NCBI RefSeq assembly: GCF_025398735.1
Contig: NZ_CP104694.1
Location: forward strand, 5,855,465 to 5,919,464
Length of the DNA stretch: 64,000 nt
Direction of reading: 5' to 3'
Origin: Tahibacter amnicola
Lineage (GTDB): Bacteria > Pseudomonadota > Gammaproteobacteria > Xanthomonadales > Rhodanobacteraceae
Positions 3,417-12,885 of the stretch are shown here, piece by piece; position 1 is the stretch's first letter; every line of letters begins with the position of its first letter. A model generated the notes under the pieces. It saw only the letters and a list, made by a program, of their open reading frames with translations. It was not told where the DNA came from and searched no databases. The position numbers and the translations under genes are program-made.

Positions 3417-3447
3417 TTGACTCGGACGTCTATACGTCTTAACGTCC
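3417..3447 (+). promoter_or_regulatory. metE promoter with tandem AGACGTCT-like operator boxes
   Basis: Three contiguous 8-base units, ggacgtct / atacgtct / taacgtcc (3424-3447), form an approximate inverted repeat whose outer arms CGGACGT and ACGTCCG (3423-3429 and 3442-3448) match exactly. A TTGACT hexamer (3417-3422) and a weak TAACGT hexamer (3440-3445) 17 bases apart would put the boxes inside the promoter. The same 8-base unit is repeated upstream of metX. It resembles the MetJ met box, but in Xanthomonadales the described methionine repressor is SamR (ArsR family), so the binding protein is not decided. Confidence 0.6.
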
Positions 3448-3640
3448 GCGGCGTTGATGGTTCCGGGAGTCACGCCCCGGATGAAAAGGGAATCCGGTTG
3501 GAATCCGGAGCTGCCCCGCAGCGGTAATTGGAAACGACCTTCGCCAATGGCACTGGCTCCCCTGCCGGGAAGCGGCGAACAGTAGGCAAGCGGTGATCAA
3601 GACACCGCCACGTCCATAAGCCCGAAGACCTGCCTCGACC
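3445..3640 (+). promoter_or_regulatory. cobalamin (B12) riboswitch
   Basis: The conserved core is easy to read: a GATGAAAAGGGAATCCGG block, GGAATCCGGAGCTG, then the near-invariant GCTGCCCCGCAGCGGTAA (ending near 3528), and the B12-box-like GAAGACCTGCC at 3623-3633. Order and spacing fit the AdoCbl class. It sits in the leader of metE, the cobalamin-independent methionine synthase, a classic target: with B12 present the MetH route can work and MetE is shut off. Downstream, a perfect hairpin CGAAAGC-AACC-GCTTTCG (3640-3657) and a CCGGC/GCCGG hairpin near 3693-3706 are candidates for the expression platform. There is no T-run, which favours translational or Rho-dependent control. Confidence 0.93.
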
Positions 3641-3832
3641 GAAAGCAACCGCTTTCGTACGACCTGGAGCTCCGCGGGGAGACATCCGGACACCGGCGCA
3701 TGCCGGTCTTCGGCGTTTGTCCGCGATTCCGGTTCGCCCGCGGGGGCGAAGGGTCAGGCCATGCCGGCAGACGCTGCGGCGTGTCGTGCCTTCGTTCCTC
3801 TCGGCGTACTCACAAACGCTGGAGGAATTGCA

Positions 3833-6124
3833 ATGTCTTTGGTTACTTATCTCGGTTTTCCCCGCATCGGTTTGAAGCGCGAGCTCAAGCGGGCGCTGGA
3901 AAGCTTCTGGCGCGGCGAGTCCGACGCCGCGGCCCTGCAGCAGGCTGCGTCGGAATTGCGCCTGCGTCACTGGCGCCTGGCCCAGGATGCCGGGGCAGAT
4001 GTCGTGCCCGTCAACGACTTCTCGCTCTACGACCATGTCCTCGATCACGCCGTCATGTTCGACGCCGTGCCCGATTCCCACCGAGCCGTGCTCGATGCGG
4101 ATTTTCTCACCGGCTATTTCGCCCTCGCCCGCGGCCTGCAGAAGGACGGACACGATCTGCGCGCGCTGGAAATGACCAAGTGGTTCGACACCAACTATCA
4201 CTACCTGGTACCGGAACTGCGACGCGGCCAAACGTTCCGCCTGCGCGATGACAAGCCCGTACGGGAATTCATCCAGGCACGCGACGCCGGGCTTCGTCCC
4301 CGGCCCGTGCTGCTGGGCCCCGTGAGCTTCCTGCTGCTGGCCAAGACCACCGACGGCAGCGCGCGACTGGCCCTGCTCGACGCCCTGCTGCCCTGCTACG
4401 TGCAGCTGCTGGCGGCACTCAAGCAGGCGGGCGCGGAATGGGTGCAGATCGACGAGCCGTTCCTGGTGCTCGATCTGGACGAGGACACGCGCCACGCGTA
4501 CGAGCACGCGTGGGAAGTGCTGTCCAGGGCAGACGGACCGAAGCGGTTGCTGACCACGTACTTTGGCGCATTGGGTGACAACGCGGCATTTGCCGCACGG
4601 TTGCCGGCCAACGGCCTGCACATCGACCTGGTCCGCGGGCCCGACCAGCTCGACGACGTGCTCAGGGTACTGCCGTCCGACCGCACGCTCAGCCTGGGCC
4701 TGGCCGATGGCCGGAACGTATGGCGCGCGGACCTGGACAAGGCCTTGCTGGCCTCGCAGCGCGCACATGCGCAGCTGCCGTCCCGGCAGATCTGGCTGTC
4801 CAGCTCGTGCTCGCTGCTGCATGTACCAATCGACCTGGCGCCGGAGACGGCACTGCCCGGCGCGATTCGTCCCTGGCTGTCGTTCGCGCGGCAGAAGATC
4901 GAGGAGCTGCGCACCATCGCCGACGCTCAGCGCAACGATGCAGGGGCTCTGGCAGCCCTTGCCGCGGCACGTGCGGCACGCGCGGCGCGCCTGCTGTCGC
5001 CGCTGGTGACCCGCCCGGGGCTGCGGCGCCGGCTGGAAGCGCTCACCGCGGACCAGGGCACGCGCAAAAGTCCCTACGCCGTGCGTGCGGAACGCCAGCG
5101 CGAAGCCCTGCGGCTGCCGCTGTTTCCGACCACCACGATTGGGTCCTTTCCCCAGACCAGGGCAGTGCGAGAGGCACGCGCCCGCAACCGCGCGGGCCTG
5201 CTGAGCGATGCGGACTACCAGGCGTACCTGGAGAAGGAAACGGCCGCCGCCGTGCAGACGCAGGAGCAGTTGGGCATCGACGTGCTGGTGCACGGGGAGT
5301 TCGAGCGCAACGACATGGTGGAGTACTTCGGCGAGCAGCTCGACGGCTACGCCTTCACCCGGCTCGGCTGGGTGCAGAGCTACGGATCGCGCTGTGTCAA
5401 ACCGCCGATCATCTACGGCGATGTCACGCGTCCTGCCGCGATGACGGTGCAGTGGTCGCGCTATGCCCAGTCACTGACGATACTGCCGATGAAAGGCATG
5501 CTGACCGGCCCGGTGACCATGCTCAACTGGTCGTTTGTCCGCGATGACCAACCCCGCGCGGACACCTGTCGGCAAATCGCCCTGGCCCTGCGCGACGAGG
5601 TGCTCGACCTGGAAGCCGCTGGGATCCGCATCATCCAGATCGACGAGCCCGCTCTGCGCGAAGGCTTGCCGCTGCGTCGCACGGACTGGGCCGCCTACCT
5701 GCAGTGGGCAGTGGAGTGCTTCCGCCTGACGGCTAACGGCGTGGCGGACGAAACCCAGATCCACACGCACATGTGCTATTCGGAGTTCAACGACATCATC
5801 GACGCGGTGGCGGCGATGGATGCCGACGTGGTGTCGATCGAGACCTCCCGTTCGCGCATGGAACTGCTCGATGCCTTCGTGCGGTTCCGCTATCCCAACG
5901 GTATCGGCCCCGGCGTCTACGACATTCACTCGCCCCGCGTGCCCGGCAAGGCGGAGATGCTGGGCCTGCTGCGCAAGGCGTTGGATGTCCTGCCGGCCGA
6001 ACAGTTGTGGGTGAACCCGGACTGCGGCCTGAAGACCCGTGACTGGCCGGAGGTCCGCACGGCCCTGGCGGCAATGGTGTCCGCGGCACGTGAACTGCGC
6101 CTGGGCGTCGAAGCCGCCGCCTGA
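3833..6124 (+). CDS. metE: 5-methyltetrahydropteroyltriglutamate-homocysteine methyltransferase (cobalamin-independent methionine synthase)
   Basis: This 763-residue protein makes methionine from homocysteine and methyl-tetrahydrofolate-polyglutamate without B12. The length equals the family norm (E. coli 753). The zinc ligands are visible as His646 and Cys648 in THMCYSEF, Glu670 in VVSIETS and Cys731 in NPDCGLKTR. Other family marks are GEFERNDMVEYF and FPTTTIGSFPQT. The start was set at 3833, where GGAGGA lies upstream, rather than at upstream in-frame ATGs. The cobalamin riboswitch and tandem operator in its leader make control by B12 and the methionine pool likely. It is cytoplasmic. Confidence 0.97.
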   Translation: MSLVTYLGFPRIGLKRELKRALESFWRGESDAAALQQAASELRLRHWRLAQDAGADVVPVNDFSLYDHVLDHAVMFDAVPDSHRAVLDADFLTGYFALARGLQKDGHDLRALEMTKWFDTNYHYLVPELRRGQTFRLRDDKPVREFIQARDAGLRPRPVLLGPVSFLLLAKTTDGSARLALLDALLPCYVQLLAALKQAGAEWVQIDEPFLVLDLDEDTRHAYEHAWEVLSRADGPKRLLTTYFGALGDNAAFAARLPANGLHIDLVRGPDQLDDVLRVLPSDRTLSLGLADGRNVWRADLDKALLASQRAHAQLPSRQIWLSSSCSLLHVPIDLAPETALPGAIRPWLSFARQKIEELRTIADAQRNDAGALAALAAARAARAARLLSPLVTRPGLRRRLEALTADQGTRKSPYAVRAERQREALRLPLFPTTTIGSFPQTRAVREARARNRAGLLSDADYQAYLEKETAAAVQTQEQLGIDVLVHGEFERNDMVEYFGEQLDGYAFTRLGWVQSYGSRCVKPPIIYGDVTRPAAMTVQWSRYAQSLTILPMKGMLTGPVTMLNWSFVRDDQPRADTCRQIALALRDEVLDLEAAGIRIIQIDEPALREGLPLRRTDWAAYLQWAVECFRLTANGVADETQIHTHMCYSEFNDIIDAVAAMDADVVSIETSRSRMELLDAFVRFRYPNGIGPGVYDIHSPRVPGKAEMLGLLRKALDVLPAEQLWVNPDCGLKTRDWPEVRTALAAMVSAARELRLGVEAAA

Positions 6125-6133
6125 CGCACCCCG

Positions 6134-6162
6134 GCGACGGCAGGCGCCACACCTGCCGTCGC
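6134..6162. terminator. GC-rich hairpin between convergent metE and glutaredoxin-like gene
   Basis: A perfect 11-base-pair stem, GCGACGGCAGG and CCTGCCGTCGC, with a 7-base loop, 9 bases after the metE stop. There is no T tract on either strand. It is probably a shared 3' end for two convergent transcripts, or an RNA-protecting hairpin. Confidence 0.5.
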
Positions 6163-6165
6163 TGC

Positions 6166-6393
6166 TCAAGGGCCGGCCAGAAAGCGGGCCAGGGACGGGC
6201 TGTCGAAGGGCCAGTCGAGCTCGCGCCCCGATGCGGTATCGCGCAATACGGGAATGCGTACGCCGTAGCGTTCGTCGAGTGCGGCATCGTCACCGATATC
6301 GACCGATTCGAACGCGATACCGGCCGCCGCAGCCAGGGCCGCGGCTTCCTCGCACAGATGGCAGTCGTCAAGCGAATAGAGAATGTAGGCCAT
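6166..6393 (-). CDS. glutaredoxin family protein (DUF836-like thioredoxin fold)
   Basis: A 75-residue protein starting MAYILYSLDDCHLCEE. The CHLC redox motif (Cys11, Cys14) after a short beta strand, a later RIPVL with the cis-proline, and the small size fit the minimal thioredoxin-fold family often named glutaredoxin family or DUF836. It probably reduces disulfides or small oxidants in the cytoplasm; the partner is unknown. It is convergent with metE and divergent from sdaA with a 64-base gap. Confidence 0.85.
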   Translation of the reverse strand: MAYILYSLDDCHLCEEAAALAAAAGIAFESVDIGDDAALDERYGVRIPVLRDTASGRELDWPFDSPSLARFLAGP

Positions 6394-6457
6394 ATACCGT
6401 GTACCCCTGGAGCGGGTCGTAGAATAATCGCGGCCCTTCCCCGCCGGAATCCCGCCC

Positions 6458-7840
6458 ATGGCCGTCAGCGTTTTCGACATCTTCAAGATCGGCATCGGGC
6501 CGTCCTCCTCGCACACGGTGGGCCCGATGCGGGCGGCGGCGCGCTTTGTCAATCGCTGGGTCGACGAACGCGGGCTGCTCGACCGCGTGGTGCGGATCCG
6601 CGGCGAACTGTTCGGCTCGCTCGCCCATACCGGCCGCGGCCACGGCACGGACAAGGCGGTGCTCTGCGGGTTCGAAGGCGAATTTCCGGACCAGATCGAT
6701 CCGGACATCATCGACAACAAGCTGGCCCGTATCCGTAGCGAAAAGCGTATCCGCCTGCTCGGACGCCACGACATCGCGTTCGACGAAAAGGGTGACCTGG
6801 TTTTCAACAAGCGCCAGAAGCTGCCCTACCACACCAATGGCATGCGGTTTACCGCCTACGGTGCCAATGACGAAGTACTCGCGACGCGCGACTACTACTC
6901 GGTGGGCGGCGGCTTCGTAGTCAATCACGACGAAGCTGCGGAAGACCGTATCGTCCCCGATACGACGCCCGTGGCGCACCCGTTCCACAGCGGTGACGAA
7001 CTTCTGCAGCGTTGCCAGGAATCGGGCAAGACCATCGCCGGGGTGATGCTCGATAACGAGCTGTCCTGGCGCAGCGCCGATGAGGTGCGCAGCGGCCTGC
7101 TCACAATCTGGCGCGCCATGCAGAGCTGCGTAGCGCGCGGCGTGCGCGAAGCGGGCGTACTGCCGGGCGGTCTCAAAGTCGTGCGGCGCGCGCCGAGCAT
7201 GCAGGCGGAGCTGCTGGCCCGGCCGGAGGCCGCACTGAAGGATCCGCTGACGATCCTGGACTGGGTCAACCTCTATGCGCTGGCGGTCAACGAGGAAAAC
7301 GCCGCCGGCGGACGCGTCGTCACCGCGCCGACCAACGGCGCGGCGGGCATCATTCCCGCGGTGCTGCACTACTTTGACCGCTTTTGCCCGAGTGCGAGCG
7401 AAGACGGCATCATCGACTTCCTGCTCACCGCCGGCGCCATCGGCATCCTGTACAAGGAAAACGCGTCGATCTCCGGCGCCGAGGTGGGTTGCCAGGGCGA
7501 AGTCGGCGTCGCCTGCTCAATGGCCGCTGGCGGCCTGACGGCGGCACTCGGCGGCACCATCTACCAGGTGGAGAACGCCGCCGAAATCGGGATGGAGCAC
7601 AACCTCGGCCTGACCTGCGACCCGATCGGGGGGCTGGTGCAGATCCCCTGCATCGAGCGCAACGCCATGGGCGCGGTAAAGGCGATCAATGCCTCACGCA
7701 TGGCGCTGCGCGGCGACGGCAAGCACCGAGTTTCGCTCGACAAGGTCATCAAGACCATGCGCGACACCGGCAAGGACATGCAGGACAAGTACAAGGAAAC
7801 CAGCCGCGGCGGGCTCGCCGTCAACGTGATCGAGTGCTGA
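6458..7840 (+). CDS. sdaA: L-serine ammonia-lyase (iron-sulfur type)
   Basis: This 460-residue enzyme deaminates L-serine to pyruvate using a [4Fe-4S] cluster. The N terminus [20 protein letters not shown] is the hallmark of the beta domain. Cluster cysteines are visible in the alpha domain at [16 protein letters not shown] and in [14 protein letters not shown]. Both domains are in one chain, as in E. coli SdaA. It is the only gene of its transcription unit and converges on the thrA end of the methionine operon. Its place links serine breakdown to neighbouring amino acid genes but no regulation is visible. Confidence 0.97.
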
Positions 7841-7873
7841 TCAGGACGACGTGTTTCGCCAGAAGTGGACGCC

Positions 7874-7910
7874 CACCCGGGGAGGGCCGTATCGCGGCCA
7901 TCCCCAGGTG
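7874..7910. terminator. long imperfect hairpin between convergent sdaA and thrA
   Basis: The arms CACC-c-GGGGA-g-GGCCG and CGGCC-a-TCCCC-a-GGTG pair over 14 base pairs with two mismatches around a five-base loop. It lies in the 87-base convergent gap and has no T tract on either side. Probably a bidirectional transcript end. Confidence 0.5.
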
Positions 7911-7927
7911 ACGGCAGAACACCTGAT

Positions 7928-10393
7928 TCACACCGTCGTGGCGATCTCCAGCGCATCAGCCAGCAATGCCTGCGCCGTCACTTCGGCGCCGGCGCCAGGA
8001 CCACTGATTACCAGCGGACGCTCGTGGTAGCGCGCAGTGGTCAGCACGAAGAGGTTGTCCGCGCCCGACAGCGTGGCGCAGGGGTGATCGCGACGCACGG
8101 CCTGCGGGCCAACCTGGGCTTTGCCGGTGCGGTCGAGCGTGGCGATGTAGCGCAACACCTTGCCCTGCGCAGCCGCTTCCGCGTACTGGCGCGCGATCTG
8201 CGCATCCACCTCGTCGATACGGGCGAAGAAGTCCTCGGCCGGCAACGCCGTGAGTTCGGCGGGAACCAGTCCCTGCACGACGACGTCGGTCTCTTCGATG
8301 GCAATGCCGGCCGCGCGGGCGAGGATCAGCAGCTTGCGCGCCACGTCGCCGCCGGAGAGGTCAGCCCGTGGATCGGGCTCGGTGTAGCCGCGTTCGCGCG
8401 CCTCGGCCAGCAACTCGGAGAACGGCCGGCTGCCGTCGTAGGCGTTGAAGAGGAACGACAGCGAACCGGAGAACACGCCCTCCAGCGCCAGCAGGCCGTC
8501 GCCGGCACCTTGCAGGCGGCGCAGGGTCTTGAGCACCGGCAGGCCGGCACCGACCGTGGCGGCGTCGCCGTATTGGGTCTTGCCCGCGCGGCAACCGGAG
8601 CGCACCTCGCGCCAACGCGCGAGGCTGGTTCCCTGCGCGATCTTGTTGGCGCTGACCACATGAACACCCGCAGCCAGCCACTCGGCGTGGCGTCGCGCGA
8701 CAGATTCGGCCGGCGTGGCGTCGATCAGAATCTTCACATGGGCGTCGCTGTCCTGCAGCGCCGCCACGGCCGCCTCCACGCCCAGGGGCTTGCCTTCCCA
8801 GTTCAGGCGCGCCGTGGCGGTATCCGGCGTGATGCCTTCGGCATCGATCAGCACGGAACGGGAATTGGCCACGGCCACGAGGCGCAGGTCATCGCCACAG
8901 GCCGGATGCTGCTGCAACTGGCGTAGCAAGGCTCCGCCGACGAGACCGGTACCAACGACGGCAACCGCCAGTTTCGCCGTGCCGTGGCACAGGCGCGCAT
9001 GCACCGCGTTGAGCGCGGCATGGGCGTGATCACCGGCAATCAGCACCGACAGGCCATGGTCGTGGCTGTCCTGGAAACTGCCGAGGATCGGCACGCGCAG
9101 GTCTGCCAGCGCGGTGTACAGGGCCGCCATGCGGCGCGCATCACCGCCGAATCCGGCTCGCACGGCGCGCAGCAGCGCCAGGCCGGCGCGCCACTCAACC
9201 TGGGCGAACGGCCCCAGGCTGCCCGCAAATGCCGGCTCCGCGCGGGAGCGATCAGCGGCGGTGATGACCAGATCGAGACTGCGTCGCGCATTGCATTGCA
9301 CCAGCGCACGCGGCTGGACGCCGGCGCGTTCGAGCGCGCTGAGCACCAGCGAACCGGCAACGCCGCGCACGGATACGGATACGGTGTCTTCTTCCAGCGT
9401 CACCGCACGCGCGGCGCCGCATCCCGTCGGCACGCCGACGATGCGGCTGCCCGGCTGACGGGCGTCGCGGCTGGACCGCACCAGCACCGGCACGTTGGCG
9501 CGGCGCAGCGGACGCAGTGTGTCCGGATGCAGCACGCGCGCACCGGCCGCGGCCAGTTCCTCTGCTTCCGCATAGGACAATTCCGGCGCCGTTCGGGCGC
9601 GGCGGATAAGGCGCGGATCGGCGCTGAGCACGCCGGCGACGTCCTTCCAAACCGTCAGCGATTCGGCATCAAGCAGGCGTGCAAATGCCGCGGCGGACAA
9701 ATCGCTGCCATTGCGACCCAGCGTGGCTGCACCCCCGTCACGACTGCGCGCGACAAAGCCCGGCGCAACGATCAGTGCCTCCGGCCAGCGCGCGGACGCC
9801 GCAGCAACCAGGCGCGCACTTTCATCCCAGGCAATCGCGTCAGCACCGCGCTGGGTGGCTTCCACGAGCAGCAGCTCGCGTGCATCCACGTCCTGCGCCT
9901 CGACGCCGCGCTGGCGCAGAGCCGCGACCAGCAGGCGCGACGACCAGTATTCGCCGATGCCCGCGATGCGATCAACCAGTCCGTAGCCACCGCGCGGCGC
10001 GGTGCGCACCTGCGCCAGCAGCCAGGCAAGTTCTTCGCCGTCACGCTGGAATCCGGCAGCCAGCGTCCGCGCCTCGTCGGGCGCCAACGCGTGGGCCAGC
10101 GCCGTGTGCTGAGAGATCAGCAGCTCGACGCCGGCGCGATCGGGCTCACCGGCCCGGGCCCGTTCGAACAGGCCGAGCAGCGCATCGGTCACCCCGCGGA
10201 CAGCCGAGACGACCACAAAGCACCGGACCGGCGCTTCTGATTGGAGAATGTCCAGCACGCGCCGGAAGCCTTCCAGGTCTTCCAGGCAGCTGCCGCCGAA
10301 CTTGTGCACCCGCCACCGCAATTCCCCCTGACGCGCAATTTCGTCCAGCCACGGCGCCGCAGCACCCCGCGCGTCGACCACCACTGCGTTCAT
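7928..10393 (-). CDS. thrA: bifunctional aspartate kinase / homoserine dehydrogenase
   Basis: This 821-residue fusion has an N-terminal aspartokinase, seen in VHKFGGSCLEDLEGF and in the GRNGSDLSAAAFA segment. A central ACT region follows. The C-terminal homoserine dehydrogenase starts near AVAVVGTGLVGGALL and includes the SANKIAQGTSL and GVFSGSLSFLFN signatures. It catalyses the first and third steps of the aspartate pathway to homoserine. It overlaps the metB stop by four bases (ATGA), so the two are translationally coupled, and it is the last gene of metX-metB-thrA. By position and likely control it serves methionine, like E. coli MetL, rather than threonine. The paralogue name (thrA or metL) cannot be settled from sequence alone. 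Confidence 0.93.
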   Translation of the reverse strand: MNAVVVDARGAAAPWLDEIARQGELRWRVHKFGGSCLEDLEGFRRVLDILQSEAPVRCFVVVSAVRGVTDALLGLFERARAGEPDRAGVELLISQHTALAHALAPDEARTLAAGFQRDGEELAWLLAQVRTAPRGGYGLVDRIAGIGEYWSSRLLVAALRQRGVEAQDVDARELLLVEATQRGADAIAWDESARLVAAASARWPEALIVAPGFVARSRDGGAATLGRNGSDLSAAAFARLLDAESLTVWKDVAGVLSADPRLIRRARTAPELSYAEAEELAAAGARVLHPDTLRPLRRANVPVLVRSSRDARQPGSRIVGVPTGCGAARAVTLEEDTVSVSVRGVAGSLVLSALERAGVQPRALVQCNARRSLDLVITAADRSRAEPAFAGSLGPFAQVEWRAGLALLRAVRAGFGGDARRMAALYTALADLRVPILGSFQDSHDHGLSVLIAGDHAHAALNAVHARLCHGTAKLAVAVVGTGLVGGALLRQLQQHPACGDDLRLVAVANSRSVLIDAEGITPDTATARLNWEGKPLGVEAAVAALQDSDAHVKILIDATPAESVARRHAEWLAAGVHVVSANKIAQGTSLARWREVRSGCRAGKTQYGDAATVGAGLPVLKTLRRLQGAGDGLLALEGVFSGSLSFLFNAYDGSRPFSELLAEARERGYTEPDPRADLSGGDVARKLLILARAAGIAIEETDVVVQGLVPAELTALPAEDFFARIDEVDAQIARQYAEAAAQGKVLRYIATLDRTGKAQVGPQAVRRDHPCATLSGADNLFVLTTARYHERPLVISGPGAGAEVTAQALLADALEIATTV

Positions 10394-11577
10394 GCCGAGG
10401 CTCTCCGCGCGGTTTTCTCCACGTCGAGCGCGCGCTGCAGGCCGGCGGACAGATCCGCCACCAGGTCGGCCGAATCTTCGATACCGATCGACAGGCGCAG
10501 GAGGTTGTCCGCGATGCCCGCGGCGCGACGGGCCTCGGGCGCCATGGCCGCATGCGTCATCGACGCCGGATGCGCCACCAGGCTTTCAACACCACCGAGG
10601 GATTCGGCCAGCGAGAAGCAGTTCAGACCGTCGAGGAAAGCGGCGATGCCCGCGGTATCGGCATTGAGTTCGAAGCTGAGCATGGCGCCGAAGCCCGACT
10701 GCTGGCGCGCCGCGAGTGCGTGCCCGGGGTGATCTGCCAATCCCGGGTAGTATACTTTTTCAACCGCATCGTGCCCGTTCAGCAGATGCGCCACGTGCAG
10801 GGCGTTCTCCTGGTGCGCGCGCAGGCGCGGACCCAGCGTGCGCAGGCCGCGCAGGGTGAGGAAGCTGTCGAAGGGCGCACCGGTGACGCCGGTGCAGTTG
10901 GCCCACCAGGTCAGCTGCTGCGCAACCGCGGCATCCTTGGCCACCACCGCGCCACCGACCACATCGCTGTGGCCATTGATGTACTTGGTCGTGGAGTGCA
11001 CGACGATATCGGCGCCCAGGGTGAGCGGCTGCTGCAGCGCCGGTGACAGGAAGGTGTTGTCCACGACCACGAGCGCGCCGACGGTATGGGCAGCGGCCGA
11101 GACGTGGCGCACGTCGGTGATGCGCAGCAGCGGATTGGACGGGGTTTCCACCCAGAAGACGTCCGGCTTCCAGGTCAGGGCTTCGGCCAGCGCCAGCGGA
11201 TCGGTCAGGTTGACGAAGCGGACGCGGAAACGCCCCTTCTTCTGCCATGCATCGAGCAGGCGCCAGGTGCCGCCATAGCAGTCGTGCGCCGCGATGACGA
11301 GGCCACCGGCCGGTACCAGTTCCAGCACGAGCGCCACGGCGGCCATGCCGCTGGCGGTGATCACCGCGCCGGCACCGTGTTCCAGTTCCGCCAGCGCACC
11401 ACCGAGCAGGTCGCGTGTGGGATTGCCGCTGCGCGAATAGTCGTAGGGGCGCTTCTTGCCGAAGCCTTCGAAGGTGTAGTTGGTCGACAGGTGCAGGGCC
11501 GGGACGACCGCGCCGTGCTGGGTGTCGGATTCGATGCCGGCGCGGACAGCGCGGGTGGTGGCGGAGAACTCGGTCAT
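10390..11577 (-). CDS. metB: cystathionine gamma-synthase (PLP enzyme)
   Basis: This 395-residue Cys/Met-metabolism PLP enzyme aligns by eye with E. coli MetB along its whole length: DYSRSGNPTRD, AHDCYGGTWRL, VETPSNPLLRI, VVDNTFLSP, the PLP-lysine in HSTTKYINGHSD, and SLGGVESLVAHPASMTHA. It joins cysteine with an O-acylhomoserine to give cystathionine. The sequence favours MetB over MetZ, but direct sulfhydrylation cannot be excluded. The start at 11577 has AAGGA upstream. The gene begins 16 bases after the metX stop and overlaps thrA by 4 bases, so it is the middle gene of the operon. Confidence 0.92.
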   Translation of the reverse strand: MTEFSATTRAVRAGIESDTQHGAVVPALHLSTNYTFEGFGKKRPYDYSRSGNPTRDLLGGALAELEHGAGAVITASGMAAVALVLELVPAGGLVIAAHDCYGGTWRLLDAWQKKGRFRVRFVNLTDPLALAEALTWKPDVFWVETPSNPLLRITDVRHVSAAAHTVGALVVVDNTFLSPALQQPLTLGADIVVHSTTKYINGHSDVVGGAVVAKDAAVAQQLTWWANCTGVTGAPFDSFLTLRGLRTLGPRLRAHQENALHVAHLLNGHDAVEKVYYPGLADHPGHALAARQQSGFGAMLSFELNADTAGIAAFLDGLNCFSLAESLGGVESLVAHPASMTHAAMAPEARRAAGIADNLLRLSIGIEDSADLVADLSAGLQRALDVEKTARRASA

Positions 11578-11593
11578 GGCAGGTCCTTGGTAA

Positions 11594-12622
11594 TCAGCAA
11601 CACAGGGCGCGGGCGACGAGCGTGCCGATACGCTCGGGTTCCTTGAGGAAGGCGTCGTGGCCATAGCGCGAATCGATTTCCCGATACGCCGACGGCGCGG
11701 CGATGGCGGCAGCCAGGTCGCGCAGGTCCTGCGCGGGTACGAGGCGGTCGCTGGAGACAGCGACCACGTCGGTGGGCACCTTCACCGTGGCCGGATCAAT
11801 GCGATGCAGATCGATCGATTCACTCAGCGAGAGGTAGCGCTGCGCATCGAACCGCGCGACGAATTTGCGGCCAGCGGCGCAGAGGTAGTCCTCGACCGGA
11901 AAATGGAATCGACCGTCGCGGAATTCGGGCTCGGCGTCGAAGCGTTCGGCGAACTCCTCGGCGCCACGGTAGGTGGTCATCGCCAGCTGGCGCGCCAGCC
12001 CCAGGGCCGCGTCGACAGTGCCGGCGGCCAGTCCGTTGCGCACGATCTCACGCTGGATGGCACGCAATGCCGTGGCCAGCGGGTGCGCGCGGTGCGCGCC
12101 ACTGATGGCCACCAGCTTGCCGGCGCGCGCCGGGTGGCGGCTGGCGAAGGCCAGGCCCACCATCGCGCCATAGGATGCCCCGATGAAGGCGTGGACTTTG
12201 GCGACCTGCAGGGTATCGAGCAGCGCGGCCAGCGCGTCGGCCTGGTCCTCGCTGGACACAGCGCTGGCGGGGCCAAGATCCGACTGGGCCAGCCATTCGA
12301 TCGAGAGCACGCGCCAGCGTGTCAGGTCGACCGGACGGGCTGCGCCGACGAGGTCGTCCCAGTAGCCGTTGCCCTCGGCATGCGTGCACACGTCGCGGCT
12401 CGCGGAGATCCCGCCCTGCACGATGACCGTCGGCGCGCCTTCGGCGCCAATCCACAGGTAGCGCACGGCGACATCGACCGGGCCGTTGCCGTAGCGGGGC
12501 GAAAGGCGGATCACCGTCTCGGCACGCTCCATCCGCTGCGGCCGCGCAATGGCCGGTTGGCTGTCGAACGCGACGAATGCGTCGTCGGCGTAGGCAAGCG
12601 CGGGAAGGATGCTGAGGCTCAT
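11594..12622 (-). CDS. metX: homoserine O-acyltransferase (MetX-type alpha/beta hydrolase)
   Basis: This 342-residue enzyme of the alpha/beta-hydrolase fold acylates homoserine for transsulfuration. The elbow is GASYGAMVGLAFA, where canonical MetX has GGSMGGMQ. The acid is the Asp of SSDRLVPAQDL and the histidine is in YGHDAFLKE. The start at 12622 has GGAG seven bases upstream, leaving a leader of about 200 bases that carries a SAM-I riboswitch. First gene of metX-metB-thrA. Whether acetyl-CoA or succinyl-CoA is the donor is unclear: MetX-fold enzymes of Xanthomonadales include succinyl-CoA users, and the divergent elbow is a warning against copying the name acetyltransferase. Confidence 0.88.
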   Translation of the reverse strand: MSLSILPALAYADDAFVAFDSQPAIARPQRMERAETVIRLSPRYGNGPVDVAVRYLWIGAEGAPTVIVQGGISASRDVCTHAEGNGYWDDLVGAARPVDLTRWRVLSIEWLAQSDLGPASAVSSEDQADALAALLDTLQVAKVHAFIGASYGAMVGLAFASRHPARAGKLVAISGAHRAHPLATALRAIQREIVRNGLAAGTVDAALGLARQLAMTTYRGAEEFAERFDAEPEFRDGRFHFPVEDYLCAAGRKFVARFDAQRYLSLSESIDLHRIDPATVKVPTDVVAVSSDRLVPAQDLRDLAAAIAAPSAYREIDSRYGHDAFLKEPERIGTLVARALCC

Positions 12623-12709
12623 GGTGGTTCTCCGGCAGTGGGTGAGTCTCCTGCGAAGAACCGTCGACGGTCGCTGCAGACACGACGGCGAAACCGTCGT
12701 GCTGCTGCC

Positions 12710-12821
12710 ACCCATCTGTCGGCATGACGCTCGCGCGTCTCCGTAGGAGTTGGCACCGTGCGGCATTGCCGTCGGTTGCCCCGGCTTCCAAGGGCCTGTC
12801 CCTCAGCCGGTCTCGATGGAT
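12710..12821 (-). promoter_or_regulatory. SAM-I (S-box) riboswitch of the metX operon
   Basis: Read on the minus strand, the leader contains the S-box core in order: GAGGGACAGGCCC, GGAAGCCGGGGCAACC, and GGTGCCAACTCCTAC. Flanking ATCCATC (12815-12821) and GATGGGT (12710-12716) pair as P1. These are the conserved kink-turn and SAM-binding elements of Rfam-type SAM-I aptamers. Downstream a stable hairpin CACGACGG-TTTCG-CCGTCGTG is not followed by a T-run, so the expression platform may act on translation or through Rho. SAM binding would be expected to switch off homocysteine synthesis. Confidence 0.92.
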
Positions 12822-12831
12822 CGTGGAGCGC

Positions 12832-12860
12832 ACTGTATCGGCGCATATGGTTATCGTCAA
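12832..12860 (-). promoter_or_regulatory. sigma-70 promoter of the metX-metB-thrA operon
   Basis: On the minus strand, TTGACG (12855-12860), a 17-base spacer and TACAGT (12832-12837) form a good promoter. Transcription would start near 12825, just before the SAM-I aptamer. That spacing supports both calls. Confidence 0.65.
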
Positions 12861-12861
12861 T

Positions 12862-12885
12862 AGACGTTTAGACGTCTAAACGGCC
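12862..12885. promoter_or_regulatory. tandem AGACGTCT-like operator upstream of metX
   Basis: Adjacent 8-base units agacgttt / agacgtct / aaacggcc lie two bases beyond the -35 hexamer. An exact 18-base palindrome, CGTTTAGACGTCTAAACG, spans 12865-12882. The same unit occurs in tandem at the metE promoter. Candidates for the binding protein are SamR, described for Xanthomonadales methionine genes, or a MetJ-like repressor. Neither is encoded in this window. Confidence 0.65.

Follow-up and report, generated by a model that had tools for sequence, protein, structure and literature searches.

Tandem met boxes before metE and metX of Tahibacter amnicola as probable operators of a tailed MetJ-type repressor in front of B12 and SAM-I riboswitches

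A 64-kb stretch of DNA from the 6.46-Mb, single-contig genome of Tahibacter amnicola (called the window here) contains two methionine loci, metE and metX-metB-thrA. Each of them is preceded by three contiguous 8-base units of the AGACGTCT type (met boxes) and by a riboswitch. We are highly confident that a MetJ-type repressor encoded elsewhere in the same genome uses these units as its operators, and that its predicted control in response to S-adenosylmethionine (SAM) is combined with a layer of riboswitch control. The reading of the boxes as MetJ operators is strongly supported by the analyses below.

Met boxes and the MetJ protein

The boxes were scored with two models derived from relatives. 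The first, a metJ-promoter matrix, is based on 29 metJ promoters from genera other than that of the window's genome (g1), the sites being selected by resemblance to the consensus. The second, model R1, combines 21 metX and 10 metJ sites from relatives and contains neither a site of the genome under study nor any metE site. Ranking of the window with the matrix placed the metX operator (32.3 and 29.1) and the metE operator (27.1) at the top; the next site scored 13.1, and 100 dinucleotide shuffles gave values of at most 19.8. The metE operator is also listed in the genome-wide R1 scan, even though R1 contains no metE site. Models built only from relatives thus link the two loci, as the preliminary description of this DNA had assumed when it saw one motif at both.

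A chance origin has to be considered, since GACGTC-rich words are frequent in high-GC DNA and the two loci had been chosen by eye. Single AGACGTCT-type 8-mers with at most one mismatch are not enriched in the window (14 found, 18.6 expected), and the plain consensus pair AGACGTCTAGACGTCT with 3 mismatches shows no enrichment in the whole genome (13 places, versus 21 for the reversed control). Occurrence at chance frequency, which the preliminary description had named as damaging to its proposal, is true of the single unit. However, it is not true of the tandem arrangement: 16-mers with at most three mismatches occur 3 times in the window with 0.13 expected, none of 100 shuffles reaches 3, and all three matches are the metE and metX operators. 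Moreover, the matrix score of neither locus was reached in 100 shuffles, and the boxes hold fixed promoter positions across genera. We consider chance an extremely improbable explanation.

The genome encodes one MetJ protein (contig 1, 1,659,037-1,659,510; PF01340, 134.5 bits with a cut-off of 25, E 5.7e-39). Its core shares 54 of 75 residues with MetJ from E. coli (1cma), and the identical positions include K23, T25, E39, R42, E59, A60, F65 and L70, which we take to be DNA or SAM contacts. The protein has 157 amino acids, compared with about 104 residues for the E. coli chain, which has no extension; here the core is followed by a 76-residue tail consisting mainly of Lys and Ala. A Lys/Ala-rich tail occurs in all 34 MetJ proteins from 23 genera that were parsed in the family of this genome (f1), its length ranging from 37 to 306 residues and its composition from 30 to 51% Lys+Arg and from 29 to 45% Ala; these were 34 of 36 loci, L229 and L237 not being parsed and the contig-edge fragment L036 being left out. 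No such tail was found in the 13 MetJ proteins examined from family f9, which are 90-97 residues long. The family PF01340 does not require the compact, tail-free form. The tail of the f1 proteins is H1-like and its length is highly variable.

A profile search in 398 genomes of the order found MetJ in 145 of them, 125 in f1 and 20 in the families f8, f9 and f12. Among the genomes without a match, 20 are named and 233 are further ones without names; the lists run by kinship and the 20 start outside f1, from which we infer that MetJ is missing from no sampled f1 genome.

The motif follows MetJ across the genomes tested. Whole-genome scans of both strands with R1 gave 8 to 43 matches in 12 f1 genomes and 1 to 26 in six MetJ-bearing genomes of f9 and f12; among 17 relatives from the order without MetJ, 16 had none and one had a single match. 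For the count of co-occurrence we used the 10 of the 12 f1 genomes with a shown MetJ (G412 and G399 were left out), so that R1 sites occur in 16/16 genomes with MetJ and in 1/17 without it (Fisher 1.5e-8, uncorrected for kinship). The same comparison for the nine MetJ genomes that had given the model no site resulted in 9/9 versus 1/17 (Fisher 3e-6, again uncorrected for kinship).

The boxes are also conserved in place. A metX-like gene (E <= 1e-60) was found in 99 of the 117 f1 genomes searched, and the best 30 orthologue loci were fetched, the locus of the window included. Met boxes, and likewise a SAM-I riboswitch, are present at 30/30 of these loci. The -35 pattern TTGAC[ACGT] was matched in 28 of the 30 loci; it follows a box after 1 nt in 25 of them and after 6 nt in the other 3. 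One of the two unmatched loci, L050, has 14/16 matching positions over two boxes and the order box, one base, TTGACG. Upstream of metJ, the best box pair within 300 nt lies at -158 to -187 in 34/34 parsed loci; it matches the 16 consensus positions at 12 or more in 24 loci, at 11 in five, at 10 in four and at 9 in one, scores of 9-10 being confined to the genera g4, g6, g8 and g24. The evidence for these metJ-promoter boxes is their fixed position rather than their scores.

Taken together, MetJ is the most probable binder of the boxes at metE and metX. The preliminary description had asked whether MetJ or SamR, an ArsR-type regulator, binds here and had suggested a search for both homologues. 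Both are encoded in the genome, and its question is largely answered in favor of MetJ by the presence of this gene, by the motif tracking MetJ and by the different palindrome of SamR (see below).

The two loci and the proposed two-layer control

The features of both loci are collected in Table 1; the reading frames examined with Pfam span 3833-6121 (metE), 7931-10393 (thrA type), 10393-11664 (metB type) and 11597-12622 (metX). The coordinates that the preliminary description gave for the two tandem arrays agree with our reading of the sequence, as does the exact 18-base palindrome at metX, and the B12 aptamer at metE and the SAM-I aptamer at metX are both real according to Rfam. It had further placed each array on or beside a sigma-70-like promoter and just before an aptamer. 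For metX this is confirmed: the consensus scan lists a promoter there, and a single base separates its -35 hexamer from the nearest box on the upstream side. The metE promoter was seen by eye and checked against the sequence, but the scan does not list it; the boxes there occupy the promoter spacer, cover the -10 hexamer and extend over the initial 7 nt of what Rfam matches as the aptamer.

Table 1. Positions of operators, promoters, riboswitches and genes at the two methionine loci of the window
Feature	Position	Strand	Details	Basis
Probable metE promoter	3417-3445	+	-35 TTGACT 3417-3422, 17-nt spacer, -10 TAACGT 3440-3445	by eye
metE operator	3424-3447	no strand	three contiguous met boxes GGACGTCT ATACGTCT TAACGTCC	direct reading
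Cobalamin (B12) riboswitch aptamer	3441-3651	+	100.6 bits, E 5.5e-24; gathering threshold 31.5	Rfam RF00174
metE, cobalamin-independent methionine synthase	3833-6124	+		Pfam PF01717, PF08267
thrA-type aspartokinase/homoserine dehydrogenase	7928-10393	-		Pfam PF00742, PF00696
metB-type Cys/Met metabolism PLP enzyme	10390-11664	-		Pfam PF01053
metX, homoserine acyltransferase	11594-12622	-	alpha/beta hydrolase fold	Pfam PF00561
SAM-I riboswitch aptamer	12709-12822	-	71.2 bits, E 1.1e-14; gathering threshold 44.4	Rfam RF00162
metX promoter	12832-12860	-	-35 TTGACG 12860-12855, 17-nt spacer, -10 TACAGT 12837-12832	consensus scan
metX operator	12862-12885	no strand	three contiguous met boxes AGACGTTT AGACGTCT AAACGGCC	direct reading
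18-base palindrome	12865-12882		CGTTTAGACGTCTAAACG, within the metX operator	

In the mechanism that we propose, plentiful SAM would let MetJ-SAM dimers occupy adjacent boxes of each tandem array. Bound before metE, the repressor would lie on the -35 and -10 hexamers and the stretch that separates them; before metX its place would be against the -35 hexamer, and transcription would be lowered in both cases. The metE transcripts would then be checked by the B12 riboswitch, sparing the B12-independent enzyme when B12 lets metH work, and the metX transcripts by the SAM-I riboswitch. MetJ would also control its own gene, and perhaps cysJI as well as cysG-cysK and a cysB-family gene. The Lys/Ala-rich tail may strengthen DNA binding, and SamR would coexist with MetJ by using its own palindrome before samR. 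What the computation shows are the operators, the metJ gene, their conservation and co-occurrence and the separation from SamR; the two-layer control with binding by MetJ, SAM as its co-repressor and the effect on transcription is inferred.

Several observations weigh against this reading. The E-values of the R1 matches in the own genome are rough and individually weak (0.08 to 6; 150 of 1245 candidates were scored), and five of the ten places found lie elsewhere than before methionine or cysteine genes, two of them inside genes. The 29 training sites of the matrix were picked by their likeness to the consensus, 7 of the 16 MetJ genomes in the co-occurrence count have a site of their own in R1, and the Fisher values ignore phylogeny. 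While the boxes are kept at every metX locus, those at metE are patchy (14/30 loci, or 11/30 with a stricter threshold), and the conservation that the preliminary description had made a test of its idea is complete only for metX. Boxes upstream of a -35 hexamer could suit an activator too. Finally, metJ is stated to be missing from X. campestris 8004, where 109-bp and 52-bp fragments from upstream of the start site of the met operon had equal activity with and without methionine and control of the operon was located in the 5' untranslated region (5'UTR) (PMC6230763).

The last two points lead to an alternative, in which the boxes are MetJ sites as well, but bound MetJ represses metX little or not at all, or even aids its activation, while the riboswitch does the work. 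The boxes lie upstream of, and not over, the -35 hexamer in the 28 pattern-matched metX loci, and a place beside the -35 is the position of a class II activator. To our knowledge no MetJ is known to act as an activator. In X. campestris methionine left the activity of the promoter fragments unchanged (PMC6230763), and the SAM-I riboswitch controls mainly translation (PMC7270179). On the other hand, the retention of boxes at 30/30 metX loci is hard to explain without a function, and the metE boxes cover the core promoter. Although we regard this alternative as unlikely, it is the one to be taken most seriously, and we are less sure of the repression of metX by MetJ in cells than of the operators themselves, because the experiment with X. 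campestris found no promoter response.

The MetJ regulon was described for 62 genomes of Enterobacterales, Pasteurellales, Vibrionales, Aeromonadales, Alteromonadales and Shewanellaceae (Leyn et al. 2014, PMC4239095), and PMC5343134 likewise gives 62 genomes and six groups for MetJ. According to its table, none of the four Xanthomonadales genomes in the survey PMC4239095, which proposed SamR for them on computational grounds, has a MetJ regulon; the presence of MetJ in 125 sampled f1 genomes contrasts with this. Published statements on MetJ in Xanthomonas disagree. While PMC6230763 states that metJ is missing, the introduction of PMC7270179 says, citing Leyn et al., that the MetR/MetJ system of E. 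coli is apparently conserved in many Gram-negative bacteria including Xanthomonas. A search of titles and the openings of abstracts, which mostly did not cover subscription journals, found no report of MetJ in f1, and no literature pairing MetJ with Lysobacter was found.

The system shares with the classic MetJ regulon (PMC4239095) the MetJ core, the tandem AGACGTCT boxes and the proposed control of metE, metB, metX (in Pasteurellales), thr genes and metJ. It differs in that MetJ carries a tail, SamR is present in the same genome, and boxes stand before B12 and SAM-I riboswitches and also before cysJI and cysG-cysK/cysB-family genes. The met operon of X. campestris likewise has a SAM-I leader before the acyltransferase, metB and hom (PMC6230763, PMC7270179); however, its promoter is described as unresponsive to methionine and metJ as missing (PMC6230763), whereas in the present system the -35 hexamer is flanked by an operator of the MetJ type that is conserved. 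The findings would add a tailed form of MetJ and a clear set of promoters that combine an operator for a protein with a riboswitch behind it.

SamR, MetR and the operator before metE

A second candidate for the boxes of the window is SamR, which has been described as an ArsR-type regulator of Xanthomonadales. A SamR-type ArsR-methyltransferase gene lies directly before metH1-metH2 in the own genome, and close homologues occur in 59/59 f1 genomes searched (26 genera; the adjacency to metH1-metH2 was read in the own genome). The regulon of SamR in Xanthomonadales includes metB, metE, metF, metK, metX2 and hom (Leyn et al., PMC4239095). However, the 30 samR loci fetched (L246-L275) all have, about 26-30 nt before the start, a 24-bp palindrome with ATC-N10-GAT twice overlapping, which differs from the met boxes and is a strong candidate for an autoregulatory operator.

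We compared the two motifs with thresholds derived from shuffled leaders at the 99.5% level (12.2 for the met-box matrix and 6.1 for the SamR matrix). The SamR palindrome exceeds its threshold at 0/30 metX loci (29 true leaders, as the leader of L050 was unscored for SamR) and nowhere in the window, where the best value is 4.8 and the regions upstream of metE and metX are without it; conversely, the met-box matrix passes at 0/29 samR leaders. SamR was rejected as binder of the boxes, since its own, different palindrome is absent from metE and metX of the window, and we consider it very unlikely in this role. Compared with the published SamR regulon (PMC4239095), the position of samR beside metH1-metH2, read in the own genome, and the 24-bp palindrome before samR are the same; the difference is the lack of this palindrome at metX and in the window, while at metE of other genera it replaces or joins the MetJ boxes.

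A third candidate, for metE, is the LysR-type regulator MetR. Its site motif is presumably TGAA-N5-TTCA; with at most one mismatch this motif does not occur upstream of metE or metX (the metR gene itself was not searched for), and its nine matches in the window all lie elsewhere, at chance level. Even though metE is reported to be mostly regulated by MetR in Xanthomonadales (Leyn et al., PMC4239095), MetR was rejected at metE for want of an upstream site, and we give it as small a chance as SamR. MetJ is preferred over both as the binder at this locus.

The metE leaders of relatives are more diverse. A metE homologue (E <= 1e-100) was found in 47 of the 117 f1 genomes, and the B12 riboswitch is present in 29 of the best 30 loci fetched (L078-L107), the exception being L090. 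At the 99.5% thresholds, 8 leaders have only MetJ boxes, 15 only the SamR palindrome, 6 have both and 1 has neither. In a control on coding sequence, with 600 nt taken from within each gene, the met-box matrix exceeded 12 in 5/30 metE genes (highest 16.7) and in 0/30 metX genes; therefore a stricter count with a met-box score of at least 18 is also given, which resulted in 7 leaders with MetJ only, 17 with SamR only, 4 with both and 2 with neither. The leader in the window belongs to the class with MetJ only. Because the leaders split in this way in front of a riboswitch kept in 29 of the 30, the operator before metE has changed hands within f1 while the B12 riboswitch remained. The metE leaders with MetJ alone, with both and with SamR alone form a natural series for studying the replacement of a regulator with an unchanged RNA switch.

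Candidate sites at other genes

The R1 scan of the own genome gave 16 matches at 10 distinct places. Those at methionine and cysteine genes are metX, metE, metJ, cysJ-cysI (C1:6181760-6181775, 16 nt before the called start) and the region between cysG-cysK and the gene for a CysB-family regulator of the LysR type (C1:1047845-1047867), the last two being loci L172 and L174. MetJ may therefore reach into sulfur assimilation here, as judged from these motif matches. Of the other five places, for which gene names were assigned by eye, one is before a phasin-like gene, one between DegV-like and winged-helix genes, one between a tyrS-like gene and an M23-like one, and the remaining two fall within genes. 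Since the gene caller missed some genes, not all of the distances to neighbors reach the true next gene. Strong R1 sites in relatives were also found at cysJ, cysG//cysB, gltB, purH, thrA and hom-thrB, with some of the names again given by eye.

Some sites in relatives lie between convergent genes. Tandem met-box palindromes between a glycine-zipper gene and one for a SleB-like hydrolase were read in L198 and L209, and the same setting was deduced from shared neighbors in L180, L191 and L212; tandem boxes between pdxJ and exb genes were read in L201 and deduced in L216. A promoter is not expected in such intergenic regions, and a classical repressor would have no obvious job there. We tentatively put forward a wider scheme, which we regard as possible but rather doubtful as a whole: f1 would run methionine synthesis with a tailed, histone-H1-like MetJ, metE would have been handed between MetJ and SamR via an intermediate with both operators while the B12 riboswitch stayed constant, and the tailed MetJ, whose boxes recur between convergent genes, would also serve as a chromosome-wide binder.

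A further met-box site was seen between divergent genes for a TonB-dependent receptor and an fmdB-like protein in four genomes of four genera (L178, L190, L203 and L210). The receptors of L178 and L190 match, in all cases below the cut-off, models of siderophore, heme and B12 receptors.

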